Part shown: positions 6,106 through 19,068 of the stretch, piece after piece
Position numbering within the stretch: the stretch's first letter is position 1
Layout: each line of letters starts with the position of its first letter
NCBI GenBank assembly: GCA_003140215.1
Contig: PLJL01000004.1
Location: forward strand, 1,209,762-1,273,761
Length of the DNA stretch: 64,000 nucleotides
From: Vulcanimicrobiota bacterium
GTDB taxonomy: Bacteria > Vulcanimicrobiota > Vulcanimicrobiia > Vulcanimicrobiales > Vulcanimicrobiaceae
Direction: 5' to 3'
Notes under the pieces: generated by a model
Database searches by the model: none
What the model was told of the DNA's origin: nothing
The model's input: the letters and a program-made list of their open reading frames with translations, nothing else
Translations under genes and position numbers: made by a program

Positions 6106-7878
6106 TTGGCGATCGCCGCGAACGCCGCCACGGTGGATTGCGAAGGACCGTTGCGTTCCAAGAAACGTCCTGACGAGCTCCGCAGCCATCGTTGGCTGGG
6201 CGTCTCGAACCTGCGCTCGTTCGGGCATCGTTCGCGGCTGCTGCAGATCGGTTACGATCGCGAGGATTTCGCCGGCAAGCCGGTCGTCGGGATCATCAAT
6301 ACGTGGTCAGACATCAACCCGTGTCACGCCCACTTGCGCACGCGTGCCGACGAGGTGAAGCGCGGCGTCTGGCAGGCGGGCGGGTTTCCGCTCGAGCTCC
6401 CGGCCATGAGCCTGTCGGAAAACTTCATGAAGCCGACGACGATGCTCTATCGTAATCTGCTCGCGATGGAGACCGAAGAGCTGATTCGGAGTCAGCCGAT
6501 CGACGGCGTCGTGTTGCTGGGCGGCTGCGACAAGACCATCCCCGGCCTGCTCATGGGCGCGATCTCGGCCGGCGTACCGGCGATCGTCATGCCGGCCGGG
6601 CCGATGCTGCGCGGGAACTGGCGGGGCGGGGTGCTCGGCTCCGGATCGGACACCTGGAAGTATTGGGACGAGTTGCGGGCAGGCCGCATCACCGACGACG
6701 ACTGGCACGAGATCGAGGGCGGGATCGCACGATCCTTCGGCACGTGCATGACGATGGGAACGGCGGCGACGATGATGTCCGTCGCCGAGGCGCTGGGGTT
6801 CACGCTGCCCGGCGCGTCGTCGATTCCGGCGGCGGATTCGGCGCACGCGCGCGCGGCCGGCGAGTCGGGGCGGCGCATCGTCGAGATGATCTGGGACGAC
6901 CTCACCCCGGACCGCATTCTCGATGCGGCGGCGGTCGACAACGCGATCACCGTGCAGCAGGCCCTGGGCGGATCGACGAACGCGATCATTCACGTGCTCG
7001 CGATCGCGCGCCGGGCGGGGATCCCGTTGCAGCTCGAGCGCTTCGACGAGATCGCACGACGCGTTCCGCTCATCGCCGACGTTCGGCCGTCGGGGCGCTT
7101 CTTGATGGAAGATTTTTACTACGCCGGCGGCTTGCGCGCGTTCCTCAACCGCCTCGCGCCGTTCCTCGACCTCGCTTGCATCACGGTGACCGGGCGCACG
7201 CTGGGCGAGAACATCGCCGGCGCGCAAGTCTGGAACGACGAGCTGATTCGACCCCTGGACAACCCCGTGTTCTCCGAAGGCGGGACCGTCGTGCTGCGCG
7301 GTAACATCGCTCCCGACGGTGCGGTGATGAAGTCGTCGGCGGCCGATCCACGCCTGTTGCGCCATCGCGGTCCGGCGCTGGTCTTCGAGAGCTACGACGA
7401 GATGGCGGCCGCGGTGGAGCGCGAGGATCTCGAGGTGACCGCCGATCACGTGCTGGTCCTCAAGAATGCGGGGCCGCAGGGCGGTCCGGGGATGCCTGAA
7501 TGGGGGATGCTGCCGATCCCGTTGCGGCTGGTGCGCGCGGGCGTGCGCGACATGGTGCGCATCTCCGATGCGCGGATGAGCGGCACGTCGTACGGCGCCT
7601 GCATCCTGCACGTCGCACCGGAAGCGTATGTCGGCGGCCCGTTCGCGTGCGTTCAGACCGGTGATACGATCGAAGTGGACGTCGAATTGCGCCGGCTTCA
7701 CCTCGATATCGACGAACGCGAGCTCGCCCGGCGTCGTGCCGCGTGGGTTGCGCCCGCTCGGCCGGCGGTCAGCGGCTACGGCGCGATCTTCGCCGCGCAC
7801 GTGAGCCAGGCCGACTCGGGCTGCGATTTCGACGTTTCCGAGATCCCAAAAACAATTGCCGAGCCCGAGATTCACTGA
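6106..7878 (+). CDS. IlvD/Edd family sugar-acid dehydratase
   Basis: About 590 residues of the Fe-S dehydratase family that removes water from sugar acids or dihydroxy acids to give 2-keto-3-deoxy products. Three cluster-ligand cysteines are visible: NPCHAH (C73), GGCDKT (C141) and GTCMTMGTA (C214). The substrate signatures MPEWGMLPIP and RISDARMSGTSYGACVLH-type block near 500-530 are intact. Motifs such as RSFGHRSR, INTWSDINPCHAH and LGSGSDTWKYWDELRAG are those I associate with L-arabinonate/pentonate dehydratases rather than true IlvD. The start is uncertain: TTG at 6106 is the longest, GTG 6133 and TTG 6151 are alternatives, and none has a strong ribosome-binding site. It overlaps the convergent MFS gene by 7 bases. 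Confidence 0.88.
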   Translation: MAIAANAATVDCEGPLRSKKRPDELRSHRWLGVSNLRSFGHRSRLLQIGYDREDFAGKPVVGIINTWSDINPCHAHLRTRADEVKRGVWQAGGFPLELPAMSLSENFMKPTTMLYRNLLAMETEELIRSQPIDGVVLLGGCDKTIPGLLMGAISAGVPAIVMPAGPMLRGNWRGGVLGSGSDTWKYWDELRAGRITDDDWHEIEGGIARSFGTCMTMGTAATMMSVAEALGFTLPGASSIPAADSAHARAAGESGRRIVEMIWDDLTPDRILDAAAVDNAITVQQALGGSTNAIIHVLAIARRAGIPLQLERFDEIARRVPLIADVRPSGRFLMEDFYYAGGLRAFLNRLAPFLDLACITVTGRTLGENIAGAQVWNDELIRPLDNPVFSEGGTVVLRGNIAPDGAVMKSSAADPRLLRHRGPALVFESYDEMAAAVEREDLEVTADHVLVLKNAGPQGGPGMPEWGMLPIPLRLVRAGVRDMVRISDARMSGTSYGACILHVAPEAYVGGPFACVQTGDTIEVDVELRRLHLDIDERELARRRAAWVAPARPAVSGYGAIFAAHVSQADSGCDFDVSEIPKTIAEPEIH

Positions 7879-9062
7879 GCCGTTACGCGCGCTCGGCGGT
7901 GCTCGACGACGAGGTACGCGGCGGCGGCGAGCAGCGGCGTAAAGGCGACCAGGCGCAGCGCGTCGTCGGGGCCTTGGCGGGTTACCACCACGCCGACGAA
8001 GGCGACGCCGAGCGAGCCCAGCCCGAACGCGACGCCGTTCATCAGTCCGAGCGCGGTGCCGAGGTTGCGCGGCAACAGCGCCTGCGCCATGGCGACGCCG
8101 GGCGCGTTCTGAATCGACAGTAAGGCGCTGCCGAGCAGCAACATCGCGACCGCGAGCGGGCCCTGGAACGCCAGCGCGAGGACCAACGGCGGGACCGACA
8201 GCACCAACCCGGCGATCGCGACGCGCGCGTGTCCGAACCGGTCGGCGCTCGCGCCGCCGGCGTACAGCCCCACCGCCGCCGCGACCAAGAACGCCGTCAC
8301 GACGGCACCGACCGCGGTGAGCGGCAAGCCCCGCGCGGTGAGCAGGTTGGGCAGATAGAATGCGAACGACGCACCCGCGAGGTAGCGGAACCCGGTGCTC
8401 ACGACGAGCAACGCGACGGCGACGCGGTCGATCGGCGGGTGCTGTGCGGCAGCATCGGGCGAGCGCCGCGGCGCGAGGGCGTCGGCGTCGCGGGCGAACG
8501 CGGGCAAGATCGTGGCGACGGCGAGCGCGGCGAGGACGCCCGGTACCGCCATGACGTACAGCCCCGCGTTTCCGGCGTGCGCGAGCAGCACCGCGGCGAC
8601 GAGCGGGCCCAGACCGTAGCCGACTTGGCCGCCGATCTGATAGATCGAGATCGCCGAGGCGCGCTTGGAACCGCCCAGCAGCGTCGAATACCGCCCGGCC
8701 TCGGGATGCATGACCGCCGAGCCGAAGCCACCGAGCAGCAGGAGCGGGAGCAGCAGTGCGATCGACGACGCGGCCGGCGTCGCCGACACCGCGATCGCGG
8801 TGAGCGCGACCGATGCCGGCAAGAACCACCACCGGCCGCGGCGGTCGCTGTACGCGCCGACGAGTGGCTGCGCGATCGAGCTCGTCAGGTACCAAACGAA
8901 CGCGAGCGCGCCTTGCCACCATACCGGCAGCCCCGCGCGCGCGACGTCGTAGAAGAGCACGAACGGCAGAATCCCCGAGTACAGGTCGCTCGCACCGTGG
9001 GCGAACGCCATCAACGAGACGCCGCGCAGATCCCAGGGTCGCGGCACGGAAGCGGTGGTCAC
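7872..9062 (-). CDS. MFS transporter, fosmidomycin-resistance (Fsr)-like
   Basis: About 396 residues with twelve hydrophobic segments and the loop 2-3 motif GAYSDRRGRWW typical of the major facilitator superfamily. The first helix region (SLMAFAHGASDLYSGILPFVLF) and MHPEAGRY resemble the Fsr subgroup of drug/efflux carriers. I start it at GTG 9062 because further upstream the frame is low-quality and runs into the divergent GNAT gene. Only 55 bases separate the two starts, so promoters are shared or face to face. Substrate is unknown. Confidence 0.85.
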   Translation of the reverse strand: MTTASVPRPWDLRGVSLMAFAHGASDLYSGILPFVLFYDVARAGLPVWWQGALAFVWYLTSSIAQPLVGAYSDRRGRWWFLPASVALTAIAVSATPAASSIALLLPLLLLGGFGSAVMHPEAGRYSTLLGGSKRASAISIYQIGGQVGYGLGPLVAAVLLAHAGNAGLYVMAVPGVLAALAVATILPAFARDADALAPRRSPDAAAQHPPIDRVAVALLVVSTGFRYLAGASFAFYLPNLLTARGLPLTAVGAVVTAFLVAAAVGLYAGGASADRFGHARVAIAGLVLSVPPLVLALAFQGPLAVAMLLLGSALLSIQNAPGVAMAQALLPRNLGTALGLMNGVAFGLGSLGVAFVGVVVTRQGPDDALRLVAFTPLLAAAAYLVVEHRRARVTAQ

Positions 9063-9117
9063 GGCAGCGGTGTTCGTCGTCCAAGGCCCGGGACGCTTTC
9101 GCGCGAATCGAGCGCCG

Positions 9118-9582
9118 ATGCAAGACGTGCTGCTGCGTCGCGCCGCGCGCGACGAGAACGACGCGGTCGCGGCGCTGTTTCGTCTGAGCAAGGAGACGGC
9201 ACTCTCGATCCTCCCGGAACTGCACACACCCGAAGAAGATCGTGCGTTTTTCCGCGATCGCGTGTTCGCGGAGTGTGAGGTGTGGGTTGCGTCGCGGCTC
9301 GGCTCGTTGGCCGGATTCTGCGCCTTTCGCGCGGGCTGGGTCGACCATCTCTACGTCGCACCGGAGCAGCAACGCCGCGGCATCGGCTCGGCGTTGCTCG
9401 ACACAGCCAAGGGCGGACACCAGGAGCTGCGCCTCTGGACCTTCCAGCGTAATGCGAGCGCTCGACGCTTCTACGAGGCGCAAGGCTTCGTCGTCGAGCG
9501 CCTGACCGGCGGCGAAAACGAGGAGCGCGAACCCGACATTCTGTACCGTTGGCGCCGAGACGGCGCGCGGACAGGGGATTGA
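9118..9582 (+). CDS. GNAT family N-acetyltransferase
   Basis: 154 residues with the GNAT core: beta4 VDHLYVAPEQQRRGIGSALLD gives the acetyl-CoA pyrophosphate loop (Q/RxxGxG/A as QQRRGIGS). ASARRFYEAQGFVV is the terminal helix-strand typical of RimI-like enzymes. The start ATG at 9118 directly precedes QDVLLRRA, where the domain begins. The acceptor cannot be told from sequence. It is divergent from the MFS gene and ends 58 bases before the transporter operon. Confidence 0.88.
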   Translation: MQDVLLRRAARDENDAVAALFRLSKETALSILPELHTPEEDRAFFRDRVFAECEVWVASRLGSLAGFCAFRAGWVDHLYVAPEQQRRGIGSALLDTAKGGHQELRLWTFQRNASARRFYEAQGFVVERLTGGENEEREPDILYRWRRDGARTGD

Positions 9583-9640
9583 GCCCTCAACCGGGGAGAA
9601 AACCGCCCGGCGGCGTTCCCCTTCGAGCTCTCGTGAAAGG

Positions 9641-10585
9641 ATGTTGGTGCACGGCCGGATCGGATTGGTGCTGCTCGTCGCCGTTGCGGCGGCCGTGTGG
9701 GTTCTGCCGTCATACTACACGGGGCTGTTGACGCAGATCGGGCTGTACGCGCTCGTCACGATCGGGCTCAATCTGTTCATGGGATACGCCGGTCAGGTCT
9801 CGCTGGGGCAAGCGGCGTTCTTCGGGATCGGCGCGTACGCGTCGGCGGCGTTGGCCGTGAAGCTGCACGTCACGCCGTGGGCGGGGATGCTGGCCGGAGC
9901 GCTTCTGGCGGCATTCGTCGCCTACGTTCTGAGCTTCGTCGCACTGCGGTTGCGTGAGAACCTGCTTGCGCTCGCGACGCTGGCGCTCGGTATCGTGATC
10001 AACGTCGTGTTCAACCAATGGGAGTTCATCGGCGGCTCCTCGGGCTTCAAGGACATCCCGGGTTTCACGCTGGGGGCGTACACCTTCGATCAACGCGCAT
10101 ATGCCGTGCTCGCCTGGGCGTTGCTCGTGCTGGGGCTATGGTTCGCGGGGAACCTCGTGCGGTCGAGCTTCGGGCGCTCGTTGGTCGCGATCTCCGCCGG
10201 TGAACTGGGCGCGCAGGCGCTGGGCGTCGACGCGGAGCGTTTGAAGCGCCAGACGTTCGTGCTCAGCGCGGTGTACGCGGGAGTCGCCGGCGCGGTCTAC
10301 GCGTCGCAACAATCGTATATCGATCCCAGCTCGTTCGATTTCTTGCTGTCGGTGAACTTCGTGCTCATGTCGGTGATCGGCGGGATTCGCAGCCTCTCGG
10401 GCGCGGTCGTCGGCGCCGCCGCGGTCGTCGCGCTCAAGCAAATGCTCCAAGCGACCGTTCCGCTCGTGCTGCCCGGTGCACGCGGCGACTTTCAGTCGTT
10501 CTTCTTCGGGATCATCCTCATCGCGATGCTGATCTACTTGCCGCGCGGGATCACCGGCCGGTTCGCCGAGGCGCGCCGCGCATGA
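9641..10585 (+). CDS. livM: Branched-chain amino acid ABC transporter permease LivM
   Basis: 314 residues of membrane-spanning helices with the LivM signature GYAGQVSLGQAAFFGIGAY near 48-66 and the cytoplasmic coupling loop SFGRSLVAISAGELGAQALGVD. It forms the membrane pore with LivH. GAAAGG lies 3-8 bases before the ATG. It opens an eight-gene operon in which every junction is short or overlapping. The first 60 bases upstream are the only intergenic space that could hold the promoter. Confidence 0.93.
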   Translation: MLVHGRIGLVLLVAVAAAVWVLPSYYTGLLTQIGLYALVTIGLNLFMGYAGQVSLGQAAFFGIGAYASAALAVKLHVTPWAGMLAGALLAAFVAYVLSFVALRLRENLLALATLALGIVINVVFNQWEFIGGSSGFKDIPGFTLGAYTFDQRAYAVLAWALLVLGLWFAGNLVRSSFGRSLVAISAGELGAQALGVDAERLKRQTFVLSAVYAGVAGAVYASQQSYIDPSSFDFLLSVNFVLMSVIGGIRSLSGAVVGAAAVVALKQMLQATVPLVLPGARGDFQSFFFGIILIAMLIYLPRGITGRFAEARRA

Positions 10586-11454
10586 TGGCATCGGTGTGGC
10601 AGTACATCCTCGCCGGCGTCGTCGTCGGCGCGATCTACGCGCTCATCGCGGCGGGCTTCGTGCTCATCTATCAGGTCACGGGGTTGATCAACTTCGCCCA
10701 AGGCGAGTTCGCGATGATCGGTGCGATGACCGCGGCTTCGCTGGCCGGCGCCGGGATGCCGACCCTCGCCGCCGCCGGGATCGCGGTCGTCGCCGCCGCG
10801 GTGACCGGCGCGCTGTGCTATCTGCTGGCGATCCGACCGGCCCGCGCGGCGACGGGGGTCACGCTGATCTTCATCACGCTGGGGCTCGACGTCGCGCTGC
10901 GCGGGCTGGGACTGTTCGTGTGGGGCACCAACCCGCTCAGCTTGAACGCGTTCAGCGGCGGGACCGCCGTTACGATCTTCGGCGGCGTGCTGCCGCCGCA
11001 AGCGCTGTGGGTGCTCTTGACCGACGTGCTGGTGTTCGGTGCGCTCTACCTGTTCTTCCGGCACACCTATACCGGCACGGCGGTACGCGCCGCGGTCGCG
11101 AACCCGCCGATCGCGTCGACGTTCGGCATCCCGCTGCGCACGTTTGCGTTCTGGAGTTTCGTCGTGGCGGCGGCGATCGGCGGACTCGGCGGCGTCGTCA
11201 TCGCGCCGATCACCAGCGCGACGTTCGACATGGGCCTCACCTTCGGACTGGCCGGTTTCGTCGCCGCCGTGCTGGGCGGACTCGAGAGCCTTCCCGGTGC
11301 GCTCGTCGGCGGATTCGTCTTGGGGATCATCGTGAAGGTTGCGGGCGGTCTGCTCTCCACCGGTTGGGAGGACGGCGTCGGTTTTTTTATCCTCGTGCTG
11401 GTGCTCGTGCTGCGCCCGCAAGGGCTGCTCGGGCGCGCGGTGCGGCGCGCATGA
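10582..11454 (+). CDS. livH: Branched-chain amino acid ABC transporter permease LivH
   Basis: 290 residues with the LivH signature GLINFAQGEFAMIGAM near 35-50 and eight or so membrane helices. It pairs with LivM. Its ATG overlaps the LivM stop by 4 bases, a sign of translational coupling. A second ATG follows at once (10585). Substrate range of this family covers amino acids, amides and urea. The downstream dehydrogenase genes argue for branched-chain amino acids or their 2-oxoacids. Confidence 0.93.
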   Translation: MMASVWQYILAGVVVGAIYALIAAGFVLIYQVTGLINFAQGEFAMIGAMTAASLAGAGMPTLAAAGIAVVAAAVTGALCYLLAIRPARAATGVTLIFITLGLDVALRGLGLFVWGTNPLSLNAFSGGTAVTIFGGVLPPQALWVLLTDVLVFGALYLFFRHTYTGTAVRAAVANPPIASTFGIPLRTFAFWSFVVAAAIGGLGGVVIAPITSATFDMGLTFGLAGFVAAVLGGLESLPGALVGGFVLGIIVKVAGGLLSTGWEDGVGFFILVLVLVLRPQGLLGRAVRRA

Positions 11455-12317
11455 CCGCGCCGGCCGCAAACCCCAGCGTGACGGCGACCCTCGAGGTGGC
11501 CGGCGTGACGGTGCGCTTCGGCGGGGTCGTCGCGGTGGACGACGTCAGCTTCGTCGCGCGCACCGGCGAAGTGCTCGGCGTGATGGGCCCCAACGGGGCC
11601 GGCAAGACGACGCTGTTCAACGTGATCAGCGGCGTGCAACGGCCCACCGCCGGCAGCGTATCGCTCGCCGGTACGGCGCTGACGGGGCGCTCCGTGGAGA
11701 ATGTCGCGGCACTGGGCGTCACGCGAACCTTCCAAACACCCGTCATGTTCTGGGGGCTCACGGTGCGCGAGAGCATCGAGGTCGCCCTGGCAGCGCGCGA
11801 GTTCGGCGCGACGTATCCGCCCGCGCCGCACCGCGAGCTCGTGCCGTGCGGGATCGGAGCGGCGCAGCGCCGGCGCGCGGAGACGGCCTTACGTGACACG
11901 GCCGATGCGATCCTGACCCGCGCGGGGATCGCTGCGACCGCCGATCGGCTCACCGAGTCGCTGGCCTTCGGCGAGGAACGGCTGCTGGAACTCGCGCGCG
12001 CACTCGCGGTCGAGCCGACGGTCCTGCTGCTCGACGAGCCGCTCTCGGGGCTCAACCCCGATGAGATCGGCGCCGTGATCGCGTCGATTCGGGCCGCGCG
12101 CGAGGACGGCGTCGCGGTGCTGTTGGTGGAGCACGCCGTCGGGGAGCTGCTTGCCGTCGCCGATCGCGTGGTGGTGCTCGACCACGGGCGCAAGATCGCC
12201 GAAGGTGCTCCGCAAGCCGTCGCGACCGATCCGCTGGTGATCGACGCCTACATCGGTGACGAGCTGGACGCTCCGGCTGGTTCATCCTTCGACGGGGCTC
12301 AGGATGACAATGACTGA
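11451..12317 (+). CDS. livG: Branched-chain amino acid ABC transporter ATPase LivG
   Basis: 288 residues: Walker A GPNGAGKTT, Q-loop TFQTP, Walker B VLLLDEPLSGL and switch His in LLVEHAV. The ABC signature is unusual, ESLAFGEERLLE in place of LSxGQ. LivG proteins often show LxYG(E/Q)QR, so this may still work. ATGA overlaps LivH. The last codons (SSFDGAQDDND) are encoded by a dispersed repeat at 12286-12307 and are not expected in the family, so the C-terminus seems to have been extended or replaced by the repeat. Confidence 0.92.
   Translation: MTAPAANPSVTATLEVAGVTVRFGGVVAVDDVSFVARTGEVLGVMGPNGAGKTTLFNVISGVQRPTAGSVSLAGTALTGRSVENVAALGVTRTFQTPVMFWGLTVRESIEVALAAREFGATYPPAPHRELVPCGIGAAQRRRAETALRDTADAILTRAGIAATADRLTESLAFGEERLLELARALAVEPTVLLLDEPLSGLNPDEIGAVIASIRAAREDGVAVLLVEHAVGELLAVADRVVVLDHGRKIAEGAPQAVATDPLVIDAYIGDELDAPAGSSFDGAQDDND
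12286..12307 (+). repeat. Dispersed short repeat, copy 1
   Basis: Matches the pattern CCTTCGACRRGCTCAGG followed by RTRA. Copies 2 and 3 are at 48549-48569 (minus) and 49463-49483 (plus). Here it encodes the tail of LivG and provides AGGA upstream of the LivF ATG. Confidence 0.7.
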
Positions 12318-14306: not shown

Positions 14307-15251
14307 ATGACGCAGGCCGAGCGCGAGCGCGCCTACGGTGCGCTTTCGCTCGCGCGGGCACTCGACGAGCGCATGTGGCGGCTCGCACGCGCGGGCCGCG
14401 CGCACTTCGCTGTCCCGTGCAGCGGGCATGAGGCGATCGGCGTCGGCTACGCGCTGGCGATGCGGCCGGGCGTCGACTGGCTCTCGCCGCACTACCGGGA
14501 CCTCGCCGCGCTGCTCGTGCTCGGGATGGAACCGCGCGACGTGATGCTGTGCTTCTTTTCGCGGCCCGCGGACCCGAACGCCCGCGGGCGTCAGCCCTAC
14601 GCGCATTTCGGCTCGCGCGAGTTGCACGTGCTGTCGCAGCAGGGACCGCAGCCGAACCACTGTTCGCACGGCGTCGGCTGCGCGTGGGGCTCGAAGCTGC
14701 TCGGCGACGGCAGTGTCTCGGTGATCGCCTTCGGCGACGGCGGGGCGCAGAAAGGCGAGGTGCACGAGTCCATGAACGTTGCGGCGATCCACCGGCTGCC
14801 GTGCGTCTTCGTCGTGCATAGAAACGGCTGGACGCAGTCGGTGAAGCGCAGCGACCAGTACGCGACCGAGATGCTCGTCGCCCGCGCGGCGGGCTACGGG
14901 ATGCCCGGGATCGCGGTCGACGGGATGGACGTCGAGGCGATGTACGCAGCGGCCACGCAGGCGGTCGAACGCGCGCGCGCCGGCGACGGCCCTACGCTCA
15001 TCGACGCGGCGTGCGTGCGCTTCATGCCCAATACGTCCAACGACGACGACTCGCGCTATCGCGACCGTGCCGAGGTCGACGCCGTGCGCGTGAAGGGCGA
15101 TCCGTTGGTGCGCGCGCGCGCTTTGGTGGGCGCCGATTTTGCAGCACGCGTCGACGCCGAGAGCGCCGCCCAGGCCGACGATGCCGCCGAGTGGGCCGAA
15201 GCGCAACCGCTCGGCGACCCCGCGACGGTTGCGGACCACGCCTATGCCTAA
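14307..15251 (+). CDS. 2-oxoacid dehydrogenase E1 component, alpha subunit (branched-chain type)
   Basis: 314 residues of the thiamine-diphosphate-dependent E1-alpha family. The TPP motif runs from GDGGAQKGEVHES to the Asn of VVHRNGW. SGHEAIGVGYALA, SPHYRDLAALL and NTSNDDDSRYR resemble branched-chain oxoacid dehydrogenase more than pyruvate dehydrogenase. It is shorter than many bacterial BCKDH alpha subunits. The ATG at 14307 is preferred; GTG 14301 is also in frame. It works with the E1-beta encoded next, with an 8-base overlap. Position after the LIV genes supports a branched-chain substrate. Confidence 0.9.
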   Translation: MTQAERERAYGALSLARALDERMWRLARAGRAHFAVPCSGHEAIGVGYALAMRPGVDWLSPHYRDLAALLVLGMEPRDVMLCFFSRPADPNARGRQPYAHFGSRELHVLSQQGPQPNHCSHGVGCAWGSKLLGDGSVSVIAFGDGGAQKGEVHESMNVAAIHRLPCVFVVHRNGWTQSVKRSDQYATEMLVARAAGYGMPGIAVDGMDVEAMYAAATQAVERARAGDGPTLIDAACVRFMPNTSNDDDSRYRDRAEVDAVRVKGDPLVRARALVGADFAARVDAESAAQADDAAEWAEAQPLGDPATVADHAYA

Positions 15252-16683
15252 CACCGTCAGCCGTGAGCTCAGCGTGGTTGAGGCGGTGCGCGAGGCGCTG
15301 GCGCAAGAGATGGCGCGCGACGAGCGCGTTCTGGTCCTGGGTGAGGACGTCGGAAAACTGGGCGGCGTGTTTCGCGCCACCGAAGGGCTGTACGAGCGTT
15401 TCGGGCCGCAGCGCGTCATCGACATGCCGATGGCCGAGACCGTGATCGCGGGGGTGACCGTCGGTCTGGCGATGCGCGGGATGCGGCCCGTCGCCGAGAT
15501 CCAGTTCGCCGACTTCATTCATGCCGCGATGGACCATCTCGTCGGCGAGGCGGCGAAGATCCGCTGGCGTACCGGCGGCGATTGGTCGTGCCCGATGGTG
15601 CTGCGCACCGCCTACGGCGGCGGCTTTCGCGGCGGACCGTATCATTCGCAATCCGTCGAAGCCTTCTACGCGCATGCGCCGGGATTGAAGGTCGTAGCGC
15701 CCTCGACGCCGGCCGACGCGAAGGGCCTACTCGTCGCGGCGATTCGCGATCCGGATCCCGTCCTGGTGCTCGAGCACAAGCGTACGTACCGCGCGATTCG
15801 CGGCCCGGTCCCCGAAGGCGAGTACGTCGTGCCGATCGGGCGCGCGGCGGTCGCACGCGCCGGGGCCGACGCGACGGTGCTCGCCTACGGCATGATGCTG
15901 CACGAGTCGCTCGCCGCCGCTGATGTGCTCGCGCAGGAGGGGATCGACGTCGAGGTGATCGACCTGCGCACGCTCGCGCCGCTCGACCGCGAGACGATCC
16001 TGACGTCGCTGGCGAAAACGCGCCGGCTGTGCGTCGTGCACGAAGACACGCTCACGATGGGGCTGGGCGCGGAGTTGTGCGCGCTGGCGGCCGAAGCCGG
16101 CGTGCTCGACGTGCCGCCGGTACGGGTCGCCATGCCCGACATCCCCGGGATCCCGGTCGACGAGGTGCTCGAAGACGCGCTGTTGCCCAATCGCGCGACG
16201 ATCGGCGACGCGCTCGCGCGGCTGGTCGCGCGACCGCGTTCGCACGCCGGAGGCGCCGCCCCGGCGGCCTACGATCCGGGGATACCGCAGGCCTCGAGCA
16301 TCGTCGAAGTCGCGCTGCCGGTCGAGCACACCCGCCTCGCCGTCGACGCGCTGGCAGCGGCGGTGCGCGCGGTTCCGCAGTGCAACGCGACCTTCGCTTG
16401 GACTGGCCTCGTCGCGCACGACGAGGTGCGAGTCGATCTCGACTTGGGCGCGACGTCGCCGGCGAGCGGGCGCGGCACGATCACGCTGGTCGACTACGGT
16501 CCGGCCGGGAGCGACCTCGCGATCCCGTTCGTCCGGCCCGGCCAAACCGCGGCGCTGCGGATCGGTGCCGTGCACGACGGGCGCGCGTACGCCGCCTGCG
16601 CCGTCGACCATCGCGCCGTCGACGGCGCCGACGTCGGCCGCTTCCTCGCCGCCTTCAAGACTGCGGTGGAAGATGGACGTTGA
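15244..16683 (+). CDS. E1-beta subunit fused to a C-terminal E2-like catalytic module
   Basis: 479 residues, about 150 more than usual. Residues 5-330 are a normal E1-beta: LGEDVGKLGGVFRATEGL, DMPMAETVIAGVTVGLA, QFADFIHAAMDHL, then the transketolase C-domain. From about 350 to the end is a second module: LAVDALAAAVRAVPQCNATFAW, GTITLVDYGPAGS, PFVRPGQTAALRIGAV and VDHRAVDGADVGRFLAAFK. The last is the E2 acyltransferase HxxxDG motif (H456, D460, G461). The module looks like a compact E2 catalytic domain without the usual central GVAVATPDGL stretch. The next gene's E2 lacks this His. ATG 15244 overlaps E1-alpha. Confidence 0.88.
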   Translation: MPNTVSRELSVVEAVREALAQEMARDERVLVLGEDVGKLGGVFRATEGLYERFGPQRVIDMPMAETVIAGVTVGLAMRGMRPVAEIQFADFIHAAMDHLVGEAAKIRWRTGGDWSCPMVLRTAYGGGFRGGPYHSQSVEAFYAHAPGLKVVAPSTPADAKGLLVAAIRDPDPVLVLEHKRTYRAIRGPVPEGEYVVPIGRAAVARAGADATVLAYGMMLHESLAAADVLAQEGIDVEVIDLRTLAPLDRETILTSLAKTRRLCVVHEDTLTMGLGAELCALAAEAGVLDVPPVRVAMPDIPGIPVDEVLEDALLPNRATIGDALARLVARPRSHAGGAAPAAYDPGIPQASSIVEVALPVEHTRLAVDALAAAVRAVPQCNATFAWTGLVAHDEVRVDLDLGATSPASGRGTITLVDYGPAGSDLAIPFVRPGQTAALRIGAVHDGRAYAACAVDHRAVDGADVGRFLAAFKTAVEDGR

Positions 16684-17518
16684 GTTTCCGCGGCTGGCCG
16701 ACACGCTCGTCGACGGCCTCGTGTCGGAGTGGTACAAGCGCCCCGGCGATACGGTGAAACGCGGCGAGCCGCTGTTCGCCGTCGAGACCGACAAGGTGAA
16801 CACCGACATCGAGTCGCCCTACGACGGCGTGCTCGCCGAGATCGTCGTCGCCGCGGGCGAACGCGCCGAGGTCGGTCAGATCCTGGCGCGCTTCGCGAAC
16901 GAAGGCGGATCCGTCGCGGGCGAGCACACCGCGGTTTCGCGGCCGATCGGCGCGGCGCCGCAGGCGCGGCCCGGCGGCCTGAGTCCGATGCGCAAGCGTA
17001 TTGCCGAGCGGATGACCGAAGCGCGTGCGACCATCGCGCAAGGTTCGTGCGCGCGGCAGGTCGATCTGTCCGGGATCGAGCGCGCGGGCGTGGCGTGGAC
17101 GGCGTATTTCGTCAAGGCCTTCGCGCAGGCGCTCGAGGCCGACCGCATCGGGGTCGCGGTCGAGGTGCCGGGTGGTCTGGTCGTGCCGGTCGTCCCCGAC
17201 GCACGCGACGCCTCGCTGCACGACATCGGCGTGCGCATCCGCGACTTCGCCGAACGCGCCCAGGCCGGCGCGCTCACCGCGACCGACGTCGGCGGCGCCG
17301 TCGCAACCGTTACCAACGTCGGCGCCGGCGGCACGCTGCTCGCGTTTCCGCTCGTCGCGCCGGGCGAACCCGCAATCCTCGCCCCCGGTGCGGTCGTCGA
17401 CGGCCGGTGCTGGCTCGCCATGTGTTACGACCGCGCGCGCTACGACGAGTACGCCGCCGACCGTCTGCTGGCGAACGTCGCGGAGCGCCTCGCAGCGCTC
17501 GGGCGCCCTACAGGCTGA
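16673..17518 (+). CDS. Dihydrolipoamide acyltransferase E2 with degenerate catalytic motif
   Basis: 281 residues, short for E2 (usually above 380). Residues 1-75 are a lipoyl domain with the lipoylated Lys41 in ETDKVNTDIES. A linker of about 25 residues follows with no recognisable peripheral-subunit-binding domain. The catalytic fold starts at GLSPMRKRIAERMTEA (about 102-117) and has GVAVEVPGGLVVPVVPDA and the helix DIGVRIRDFAERA. Where active E2 has DHRxxDG, this protein has DRARYDE (253-259), so the catalytic His is Arg and the Gly is Glu. The preceding fusion gene carries an intact copy of that motif. No E3 gene is in the window. It overlaps E1-beta by 11 bases and the convergent JmjC gene by 11. 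Confidence 0.87.
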   Translation: MDVEFPRLADTLVDGLVSEWYKRPGDTVKRGEPLFAVETDKVNTDIESPYDGVLAEIVVAAGERAEVGQILARFANEGGSVAGEHTAVSRPIGAAPQARPGGLSPMRKRIAERMTEARATIAQGSCARQVDLSGIERAGVAWTAYFVKAFAQALEADRIGVAVEVPGGLVVPVVPDARDASLHDIGVRIRDFAERAQAGALTATDVGGAVATVTNVGAGGTLLAFPLVAPGEPAILAPGAVVDGRCWLAMCYDRARYDEYAADRLLANVAERLAALGRPTG

Positions 17519-18722
17519 GGATCTCGAGCGCCCCTTCGCGCGCGAGCCGCCGCACGAACGCCGTCGCGCTCTCGGCGTCTTCGAACATCTCCAGGTCGGC
17601 GGGAGTGAACGGCTCGCCGCGCGCCACGAAACGCAGTGCATCCTCGAGCGGCGCCGGCATCACCAGCTTGCGATCGCCGAGCACGACCTCGATCGTGCCC
17701 TCGTCGCCGCCACGCACGTCGAACACGTTGCCGGGCCGCAGGAGAACCTGGCTGCGCGCGCCGAGTGCTTCGATGAGCGGCAGCTGCTCGAACTGTCCGA
17801 ACCGGACCGGTGCGCGCGAGGAGCGGAAGCGGTTCGCGACGCGCTCGCCGAGCGCATTCGGATCGCGCGTCTCGAGCCACGTCGCGAGCGCCCGCAGCTT
17901 CGCCGCGACCGCCGGCGCGTGCGCCTCGGCGTCGTTCGCAAATCCGGCCGGCAGCGCTTCGCGAAACTCGACGACGTCCTCCAGGTCCTTGAACGCCTCG
18001 TCGAAGACGTCTTTCCAGGTGTAGCACAGCATCCCGACGGTCAGATGGACGGAGACCTGCGCGGTCGCGATCGCCTCGTGCAAGAAGCCGCGCGGGATGT
18101 AGAGCGACTGGCCGGCGAGCAGCTCCGTCTCGATCACCGACTCCTGCGGAACCGGCACCGTGCGCGAGCGCTGGTGCGGCAGCGGAACGTCGACCGCGCG
18201 CTCGTGGACGTTCCACCGCTTCGAGCCGCCGGTCTGCAGCACGAAGACGTCGTGCGTGTCGTAGTGAACGCCCAGGCCGCGCGCGCCCGGCGGAGAGACG
18301 TACGCGTTGACCTGAACGGGATGCGTGAGCTCGAGCTCCAAGTCGCGCGCGAAGCGCACGACCGGCTCCCAGTAGCGCTGCAGCCCTTGCAGCACGATCG
18401 TCGCGCCGTTCTGGAACGCGTCATACACGCGCCCGGCGTCGATGACGTCGTGCAGCCACTCCGAGCCCAGGCTGACCGTGCGCACGTACGAGCTCGGGGG
18501 CAGCTCCGCGCCGTCCTTGACGAGCCGAACGGCGGGACGGCGCGGAAACGTGCCGGAGAGGATGCGGTCGACGCTCTCGAGCGAGAACAGGTCGCCGAAC
18601 GCCGCATCGTCACGGCGGTCGACCAGGAGCGGCCGCTGCGACCAGATCTCCTCGAAGAACCGCCGGCGGTCGATGCGAACGCAGCGGTCGAGCGCGCGTA
18701 CGGCTCGGTCGCGCGTCAGCAC
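17508..18722 (-). CDS. JmjC/cupin-4 family 2-oxoglutarate oxygenase
   Basis: 404 residues resembling the RoxA/YcfD-type protein hydroxylases, which use Fe(II), O2 and 2-oxoglutarate on Arg, His or related side chains. The iron triad is visible: H153 and D155 in GVHYDTHD, and H215 in IPRGFLHEA. K168 in GSKRW is a candidate oxoglutarate ligand. A C-terminal winged-helix-like region follows, as in RoxA. E. coli RoxA modifies ribosomal protein L16. Here the gene starts (GTG 18722) 6 bases after the stop of a small repeat peptide on the same strand, with no good ribosome-binding site of its own. That implies translational coupling and makes the peptide a candidate substrate. Confidence 0.85.
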   Translation of the reverse strand: MLTRDRAVRALDRCVRIDRRRFFEEIWSQRPLLVDRRDDAAFGDLFSLESVDRILSGTFPRRPAVRLVKDGAELPPSSYVRTVSLGSEWLHDVIDAGRVYDAFQNGATIVLQGLQRYWEPVVRFARDLELELTHPVQVNAYVSPPGARGLGVHYDTHDVFVLQTGGSKRWNVHERAVDVPLPHQRSRTVPVPQESVIETELLAGQSLYIPRGFLHEAIATAQVSVHLTVGMLCYTWKDVFDEAFKDLEDVVEFREALPAGFANDAEAHAPAVAAKLRALATWLETRDPNALGERVANRFRSSRAPVRFGQFEQLPLIEALGARSQVLLRPGNVFDVRGGDEGTIEVVLGDRKLVMPAPLEDALRFVARGEPFTPADLEMFEDAESATAFVRRLAREGALEILSL

Positions 18723-18728
18723 GGCTCG

Positions 18729-18923
18729 TTACGTGTCGTCGCGACCCTGATCGTCGGGCGGCGGCGGTGGTGGACGATCGTCGCGGCCTTGGTCGTCCGG
18801 ACCCGGCGGCGGGGGTGGCGGCGGATCGTCGCGGCCCTGATCGTCCGGCGCGGTGGTGGCCTGCGGCGCATTGGGCCAGATCGTCTTGACGTCGGCGTCG
18901 CTGAAGCGAGTCTTGCTCTGCAT
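18729..18923 (-). CDS. 64-residue repeat peptide, candidate substrate of the JmjC enzyme
   Basis: Residues 1-26 are a non-repetitive, leader-like stretch (MQSKTRFSDADVKTIWPNAP then QATTAP). The rest is three identical DDQGRDD blocks at 27-33, 43-49 and 57-63. They are separated by a run of seven Pro plus GP and by R plus six Pro, ending in T. There is no signal peptide, Cys or membrane segment. GGGAGG (CCTCCC at 18931-18936) lies 7 bases before the ATG, a strong site. It heads a two-gene operon with the JmjC oxygenase. I know of no named family. A ribosomally made, hydroxylated peptide precursor is the inference; a disordered accessory protein is the alternative. Confidence 0.75.
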   Translation of the reverse strand: MQSKTRFSDADVKTIWPNAPQATTAPDDQGRDDPPPPPPPGPDDQGRDDRPPPPPPDDQGRDDT

Positions 18924-19068
18924 GTGCTTTCCTCCCGATCGAGCGGCAGAGGTACGACGTGGAATGGGGGCGTGTGCACTTGGCGCTCACGGGTCGGGTT
19001 CCTCTTTCGACCGAACGAGCTGCCAAGCGGCGAGGATGTGGCGTTCCGCTGAGCGCATTTTCCTCGCC

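Follow-up and report, generated by a model that had tools for sequence, protein, structure and literature searches.

The window analysed here is a stretch of 64,000 nt from contig PLJL01000004.1 of a Vulcanimicrobiota bacterium (host genome G000), and its minus strand encodes a JmjC_2 (cupin-4) oxygenase directly preceded by a 64-residue peptide with Asp-rich repeats. On balance, the two genes probably constitute a system akin to those of ribosomally synthesized and post-translationally modified peptides (RiPPs), in which an enzyme of the ribosomal oxygenase (ROX) type would repeatedly β-hydroxylate the Asp residues of a leader-bearing repeat peptide. This reading is suggested by the co-conservation of the two genes, the purifying selection on the peptide, the presence of Asp in every representative core, basic marker residues in the enzyme, a C-terminal fold like that of RiPP enzymes, and precedents among JmjC enzymes. 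Of the latter, FIH is described in passages of PMC3569879 as β-hydroxylating Asn, Asp, and His, and BipG in passages of PMC12707348 as hydroxylating ornithine within a RiPP precursor.

The pair, its conservation, the leader, the repeats, the enzyme family, and the predicted fold are read from sequence; from these we infer the action of the enzyme on the peptide, leader binding, the Asp target, and the function of the product. The short peptide would be a precursor made of an N-terminal recognition sequence and an Asp-rich repeat core. The ROX-like enzyme would hold the leader, perhaps through a C-terminal domain resembling a RiPP recognition element (RRE), and would hydroxylate core side chains repeatedly, using Fe(II), 2-oxoglutarate, and O2. 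The most likely target would be the β-carbon of Asp (Asn in a side branch), and the product would be a poly-β-hydroxyaspartyl peptide with a chelating or signalling role.

The peptide and its recurrence upstream of the oxygenase

The peptide starts with MQSKTRFSDADVKTIWPNAPQATTAP, after which come three exact DDQGRDD blocks with proline-rich spacers between them, as described in an earlier, sequence-only reading of the window that gave no strand. The leader-like start noted in that reading contains the motif FSDADV, the window version of a leader consensus (hydrophobic-x-D-x-D-Ile/Val/Met) found in most relatives. Ahead of the peptide ATG there is a strong Shine-Dalgarno sequence, and the GTG of the oxygenase follows the peptide stop by 6 bases with no evident Shine-Dalgarno sequence of its own, both in agreement with what had been claimed. 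The peptide and the enzyme are probably co-translated. The features are listed in Table 1.

Table 1. Features of the gene pair, in positions of the 64,000-nt window
Feature	Position	Strand	Basis
Precursor-like peptide, 64 aa	18729..18923	minus	ATG start; open reading frame and translation; counterpart in G007
JmjC_2 / cupin-4 oxygenase, 404 aa	17508..18722	minus	GTG start; H153, D155, H215, Lys168; PF08007 match; AlphaFold2 model
Shine-Dalgarno region, GGGAGGAAAGCAC preceding the ATG	18924..18936	minus	sequence reading
Leader motif FSDADV, residues 7-12	18888..18905	minus	counterpart of INDDDI, LDDDDI, LTDEDI in relatives
Repeat region, first to last DDQGRDD block, residues 27-63, presumed core	18735..18845	minus	sequence reading
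Oxygenase C-terminal domain, residues 312-404	17511..17789	minus	separate model, pLDDT 94.1; Foldseek

In G007, a genome of the same genus, the enzyme is 82% identical to that of the window, and the peptide has four DDAGRDD blocks with GSAPQP spacers. The constant part is thus D-D-x-G-R-D-D, with neither the Gln nor the proline runs kept, so that of the DDQGRDD/polyproline pattern pointed out earlier, DDxGRDD is what persists within the genus. The three blocks in the window are written with differing synonymous codons. The ratio of nonsynonymous to synonymous substitution rates (dN/dS) between the window and G007 is 0.23 for the JmjC gene and 0.21 for the peptide (0.11 in the leader and 0.27 in the rest), the latter being a rough value because it is drawn from 63 codons and synonymous change is close to saturated (dS 1.3). 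The differing codons and the low ratio argue that the repeat peptide is not a product of chance, and it appears, by this rough estimate, to be under purifying selection. In a search of 60 relatives for orphan copies of the peptide, matches at E ≤ 10 were obtained in 29 genomes and were convincing only in G000 and G007; a match in G032 (E 0.002) was set aside, as it appears to fall within the 323-residue open reading frame (ORF) of another gene.

A profile built from seven enzymes was scanned against named genomes of bacteria and archaea and yielded 539 relatives, of which the best 80, mostly from Actinomycetota and some from Chloroflexota, were used. Peptides were identified by a fixed rule, which demanded the motif [LIVMF][STND]D.[DNQ][IVM], preceded within 40 residues by a start codon and followed by 15 to 200 residues, with the stop codon lying between -260 and +40 relative to the enzyme match. 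By this rule, a peptide was found in 64 of the 80 loci, the lowest Asp+Asn content among the 64 being 18%. Reading of the 16 misses revealed the leader part in twelve (L021, L031, L033, L048, L049, L057, L063, L064, L067, L073, L075, and L093), with leaders departing from the rule motif in L049 and L064; at L019 and L081 a contig end cuts the peptide, and only the repeat end is present. Altogether, an Asp-rich repeat peptide lies upstream of the enzyme in 78 of the 79 testable loci (L087 is untestable). As a control, the same rule was applied to the regions upstream of 259 further ORFs of these loci and gave two matches, neither of them with an Asp+Asn content of 15% or more. The 64 rule-found peptides stop at a median of 36 bases (range -4 to 196) ahead of the enzyme match, and 60 of them have a Shine-Dalgarno-like word within 18 bases before the start.

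The sequence-only reading had proposed that co-conservation with a variable number of repeats would support the pairing, and that orthologues lacking an adjacent repeat peptide would refute it. Three and four blocks occur within the genus, and among the 66 locus peptides counted, 48 have three units and 5 have two; the lack of an adjacent peptide was seen at just one of the 79 testable loci. The repeats themselves differ among taxa. The majority actinobacterial unit is GEGPADGG(S/A)NPxGHDGGADG(T/S)A, while the Modestobacter and Geodermatophilus peptides have long DGGADGG runs. The repeats are DSTDATDVDGTDA and similar in Acidimicrobiia, DGTDGTDGEADADGTDG or DTGRDPGGPGQDTSLDPGG in Chloroflexi, and ADADAADADASD in Nitriliruptorales. 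On a Streptomyces clavuligerus plasmid (L128), the annotated 48-residue neighbour of the enzyme ends in ADNDPSDPPIAIADPDPFDPVI. No relative of the enzyme was found in viral contigs, and phages gave one short, weak match.

At the S. clavuligerus plasmid locus (L128, 3772-5167), this hypothetical protein of 48 residues, with its Asp-Pro repeats, stands immediately ahead of a cupin-domain protein, and genes for an S9 peptidase and an ABC transporter lie farther along; it is possibly a processed and exported relative. Two other Streptomyces plasmids (L132 and L133) carry, in the same order, two cupin-domain genes and genes for an S9 peptidase, a carbamoyltransferase, DinB, and an M13 metallopeptidase.

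A third gene, Suc_Fer-like (PF06999), recurs directly downstream of the enzyme: all three genes tested match PF06999, and the Suc_Fer-like cysteine motif occurs within 1.3 kb downstream in 69 of the 80 loci. PF06999 has no match in the host genome or in 20 relatives, so the pair does not require this third gene. Consensus boxes for IdeR, Zur, CsoR, and DtxR did no better upstream of the 64 rule-found peptide genes than in a background of one shuffle each.

In the host phylum, a profile search of 149 genomes gave 22 matches in 17 genomes. All eight enzymes with E ≤ 1e-120 (in G000, G007, G021, G024, G086, G038, G037, and G008) are immediately preceded by a short peptide rich in Asp or Asn, the peptides of G037 and G038 having a different leader and merely a short acidic tail. 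By reading, an Asp-repeat peptide accompanies none of the 14 other JmjC_2 matches in the phylum. At the G021 locus (L004, 1483-1620), no ATG, GTG, or TTG is present from the peptide stop to the conserved start region of the JmjC protein. The peptide and the JmjC gene share one reading frame there; translation may begin at a rare codon or continue through the stop, or the assembly may be wrong.

A tree of 50 enzymes places those of the window and G007 with Acidimicrobiia enzymes (98/86), and those of G021, G024, and G086, which belong to the window's own family, inside an Actinomycetota group (96/93). The peptides of G021, G024, and G086 are of the actinobacterial DGGADG type. It therefore appears that the enzyme and the peptide were transferred as a pair in this branch. 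A stronger claim of co-transfer is weakened by the peptide-less L028, which lies inside the group, and by the length of some deep branches.

Two of the other JmjC_2 settings in the host phylum may be recorded here. In G004:C8 (locus L105, about 7668-12236), a radical SAM gene, two 39-residue peptides ending in YYCYGDG and YYCYGDN, and two JmjC_2 genes lie together, which looks like another RiPP-like cluster using JmjC enzymes. In G139 (locus L150, 1008-1465), a JmjC_2 gene stands in a row with a gene of the PqqD family (PF05402, E 2e-14) and one for a peptide of 47 residues (MNTKPSKKEPWETPVLLPLDLSKAAGG...); this setting looks RiPP-like in another way than by Asp repeats.

The oxygenase and its C-terminal domain

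The enzyme matches PF08007 (JmjC_2) with an E value of 1.7e-23, and it is the sole PF08007 match in the host genome (3.9 Mb, 7 contigs, 87% complete). Its domain has the HxD...H triad of the ROX / JmjC_2 (cupin-4) oxygenases, and the intactness of this triad, asserted in the sequence-only reading, is corroborated by an alignment of 27 sequences, the window's included, in which H153, D155, H215, and Lys168 are invariant. Lys168 is presumably the 2-oxoglutarate ligand. In its AlphaFold2 model (pLDDT 91.7), the predicted architecture is that of ROX enzymes, with a JmjC barrel, a helical middle part, and a C-terminal winged-helix-like domain. Foldseek matched the whole enzyme along the chain to NO66 (TM-score by query 0.68-0.72), followed by MINA53, YcfD, and YxbC, and a profile search against solved chains put NO66 and MINA53 at the top, YxbC next, and YcfD-type enzymes after them.

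Modelled separately, the C-terminal 93 residues form four strands, a long helix, a short helix, a long helix, and a last strand. Their Foldseek matches are the C-terminal parts of MINA53, NO66, and YcfD, interleaved with RiPP enzymes, namely a heterocyclase with substrate (4v1t, which we take to be LynD), TruD, ThcOx, and McbBCD (E 0.014-0.9). An RRE of the PqqD type has three strands followed by three helices, and the modelled domain may share an RRE-like fold, which would not be proof of leader binding. PqqD (PF05402) has no match among 30 enzymes at E ≤ 1.

Target residue and competing readings

The cores of 23 representative peptides, chosen by hand, were defined as residues 25 onward, or as the second half in short peptides. 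Asp and Ala are each present in 23 of these cores, Gly in 22, His in 11, Gln in 9, and Arg in 8; in the 64 rule-found peptides, Arg is present in 4 cores and His in 58. The sequence-only reading had taken the repeats as the modified core and had pointed to Arg and Gln besides Asp. Considering the co-conserved pair, the peptide is probably a dedicated substrate of the JmjC enzyme, and this part of the proposal stands. A modification of the Arg (or Gln) of the DDQGRDD blocks, similar to that of an Arg of ribosomal protein L16 by YcfD/RoxA, would agree with the GRD constant in the window and G007, with the GRDP of two Chloroflexi peptides, and with YcfD being a structural relative. It is nevertheless very unlikely, because Gln is replaced by Ala in G007, Arg is absent from most cores whereas Asp is in all, and NO66 and MINA53 are nearer to the enzyme than YcfD.

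The Asp residues recur in DG, DA, and DP contexts, which is unusual, and the same pair might perform other chemistry at Asp-Gly, Asp-Ala, or Asp-Pro sites: the peptide might be crosslinked or desaturated, or its backbone oxidised. RiPP macrocyclisation catalysed by a 2-oxoglutarate (2OG)-dependent dioxygenase is the subject of a title among the references of PMC12710340. However, the closest solved folds (NO66, MINA53, and YcfD) are side-chain hydroxylases by their titles, and no feature of the anatomy of the gene or the peptide demands a crosslink; we consider such chemistry unlikely.

Arg or Lys is more frequent in the enzymes with Asp peptides than in the others at positions 61 (25/25 vs 3/20), 116 (23/25 vs 1/20), 329 (25/25 vs 9/20), and 392 (22/25 vs 2/20), in a comparison where the positions were picked post hoc (at least 80% Arg/Lys), kinship is uncorrected, and L028, L005, L007, L008, and L128 are in neither group. 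The G008 enzyme, which has an Asn-rich peptide, has no basic residue at 116, 329, or 392. Basic residues at these positions would suit the binding of an acidic substrate, which fits Asp hydroxylation and is not proof of it. The marker arginines fit as well a peptide that is not a substrate. It might instead be an upstream ORF with a regulatory role, or it might, as an acidic partner, inhibit or chaperone a ribosomal oxygenase with a basic ribosomal-protein target; an enzyme that acts on basic substrates could be capped by an acidic peptide. The short spacing, with likely translational coupling, and the full ROX architecture kept in the modelled enzyme are in line with such a role. It seems improbable, however, in view of the conservation at the protein level and of the leader part followed by a repeat part that varies in sequence and copy number, neither of which is needed by an upstream ORF.

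Several observations weigh against a RiPP-like pair that β-hydroxylates Asp. With Ala in all the representative cores and Gly in all but one, presence alone does not single out Asp. The G008 peptide is rich in Asn, Gln, and Arg, ends in NRQNQQNYQNN, and has one Asp in its C-terminal half. L028 (Dactylosporangium), the sole testable locus with no peptide upstream, keeps the marker arginines, and the S. clavuligerus enzyme, which has an Asp-Pro peptide, has Glu at 116. On the tree, the rows with Asp peptides (the Asn-rich L005_G008 and the contig-cut L019 being counted with them) are not one clade and require 3 changes, and the repeats of the window are unlike those found in Acidimicrobiia, where the closest kin of its enzyme occur. 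The C-terminal domain has no Foldseek match at E ≤ 0.001, homology to PqqD is not supported by profile comparison (hhalign probability 0.4%), and an RRE-like C-terminal fold is also common to ROX enzymes acting on ribosomal proteins. The peptides match no Pfam or NCBIfam family above the cut-off. The set of loci is biased, because the search profile included peptide-linked enzymes, and 459 of the 539 matches are outside the sample. Leaving aside antisense ORFs over the same region, taken as shadows, JmjC, the peptide, and Suc_Fer-like are the only families whose count exceeds 10 among the 80 loci, with smaller families unannotated; among the families considered, no conserved protease or exporter was seen. 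Not all RiPP clusters encode a protease or an exporter.

If the reading as a whole is right, members of Actinomycetota, Chloroflexota, and the host phylum would make a new modified peptide by means of a compact unit of two or three genes, and ROX enzymes, known as ribosome modifiers, would be extended to iterative side-chain oxidation of repeat peptides. It would also bear on whether the C-terminal fold common to ROX and RRE serves leader binding. A broader proposal is more doubtful, namely that there is a widespread class of RiPPs whose Asp repeats are converted by one JmjC enzyme of the ROX type into metal-binding poly-β-hydroxyaspartyl chains, intra- or extracellular, and that, in Actinomycetota and some Chloroflexota, the Suc_Fer-like (ferredoxin-type) protein adds a third member to the operon, supplying reducing power or iron or acting as a partner. 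Since β-hydroxyaspartate is an iron ligand in siderophores, according to PMC12628792, a metal-binding role is directly testable. The window, whose unit consists of the two genes alone, lends itself to such tests.

Genomic setting and comparison with known systems

An Ldh_2 gene lies upstream of the pair in divergent orientation, and 2-oxoacid dehydrogenase genes lie downstream in convergent orientation; the pair therefore looks like an isolated two-gene unit. In G007 the pair is likewise between Ldh_2 and 2-oxoacid dehydrogenase genes. It may be added that the E1-beta gene of the dehydrogenase (15238-16683, plus strand) is extended by the C-terminal half of an E2 catalytic domain, in which the HRAVDGAD motif is intact, and that the gene after it (about 16673-17518, plus strand) encodes a lipoyl and an E2-like domain that reads DRARYDEY at the HRAVDGAD site. 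This split arrangement is also present in G007.

NO66, MINA53, and YcfD/RoxA have the same predicted fold along the chain as the window enzyme and hydroxylate His or Arg of ribosomal proteins, according to the titles of their structure entries. To our knowledge, their genes have no neighbouring precursor peptide. YxbC of Bacillus subtilis (7zcc, 1vrb) is a bacterial relative labelled as a putative asparaginyl hydroxylase and is 16-17% identical to the window enzyme in structural alignment; no report of its substrate was found among the literature matches listed.

Bufferins, which are rich in Cys, are made by MNIO enzymes, in contrast to the JmjC enzyme and the cysteine-free peptide of the window. 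They would be analogues in function, being described in PMC12452194 as ribosomal peptides modified by iron enzymes and chelating excess metal. In the sponge-symbiont clusters described in passages of PMC9426513, a cupin-4 modifier is likewise part of a predicted RiPP cluster, with an NHLP (proteusin-like) domain; the window peptide, in contrast, matches no Pfam family. The thioamitide enzyme TsaJ was rejected as a JmjC precedent, as it is assigned to pfam05721 in PMC8153245.

The sequence-only reading knew of no described family with this pairing. This needs to be qualified for the enzyme, since JmjC hydroxylases of RiPPs (BipG and BpmG) and JmjC proteins with RRE-like domains have been published. 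In the biphenomycin systems, as far as they are set out in passages of PMC12707348 and PMC12257519, a JmjC- or cupin-type enzyme (BipG, BpmG, or PbsQ) is co-encoded with a ribosomal precursor and acts on it, as the window enzyme would. There, ornithine hydroxylation is one step beside those of an MNIO enzyme, an arginase, and a B12-dependent radical SAM enzyme (B12-rSAM) on an FRF motif, whereas in the window the JmjC enzyme is the sole recognised modifier and the core is repetitive and Asp-rich. FRF is absent from the window peptide, and the immediate neighbours are the Ldh_2 and 2-oxoacid dehydrogenase genes, no wider search for MNIO, arginase, or B12-rSAM genes having been made. The RRE-like domains fused to JmjC in the RRE-Finder update combine PF08007 with an RRE-like fold, as the window enzyme may, and their closest bacterial homologues (about 30% identity) are said to be in RiPP-like contexts; the examples stated in section 6 of this source (PMC12710340) are from fish and algae, and neither a precursor from bacteria nor an Asp repeat is mentioned there.

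The claim fared better for the peptide. No description of this Asp-repeat family was found among the full-text literature matches listed, a coverage outside which most subscription journals lie, and the repeat letters used as a query gave unrelated papers. PMC7794033, PMC7470986, and PMC3765361 contained none of the terms sought. JmjC/cupin hydroxylases in biphenomycin clusters, cupin-4 enzymes in predicted proteusin-like clusters, and RRE-JmjC fusions are already known, and what would be new in the present system is the family of Asp-repeat peptides.

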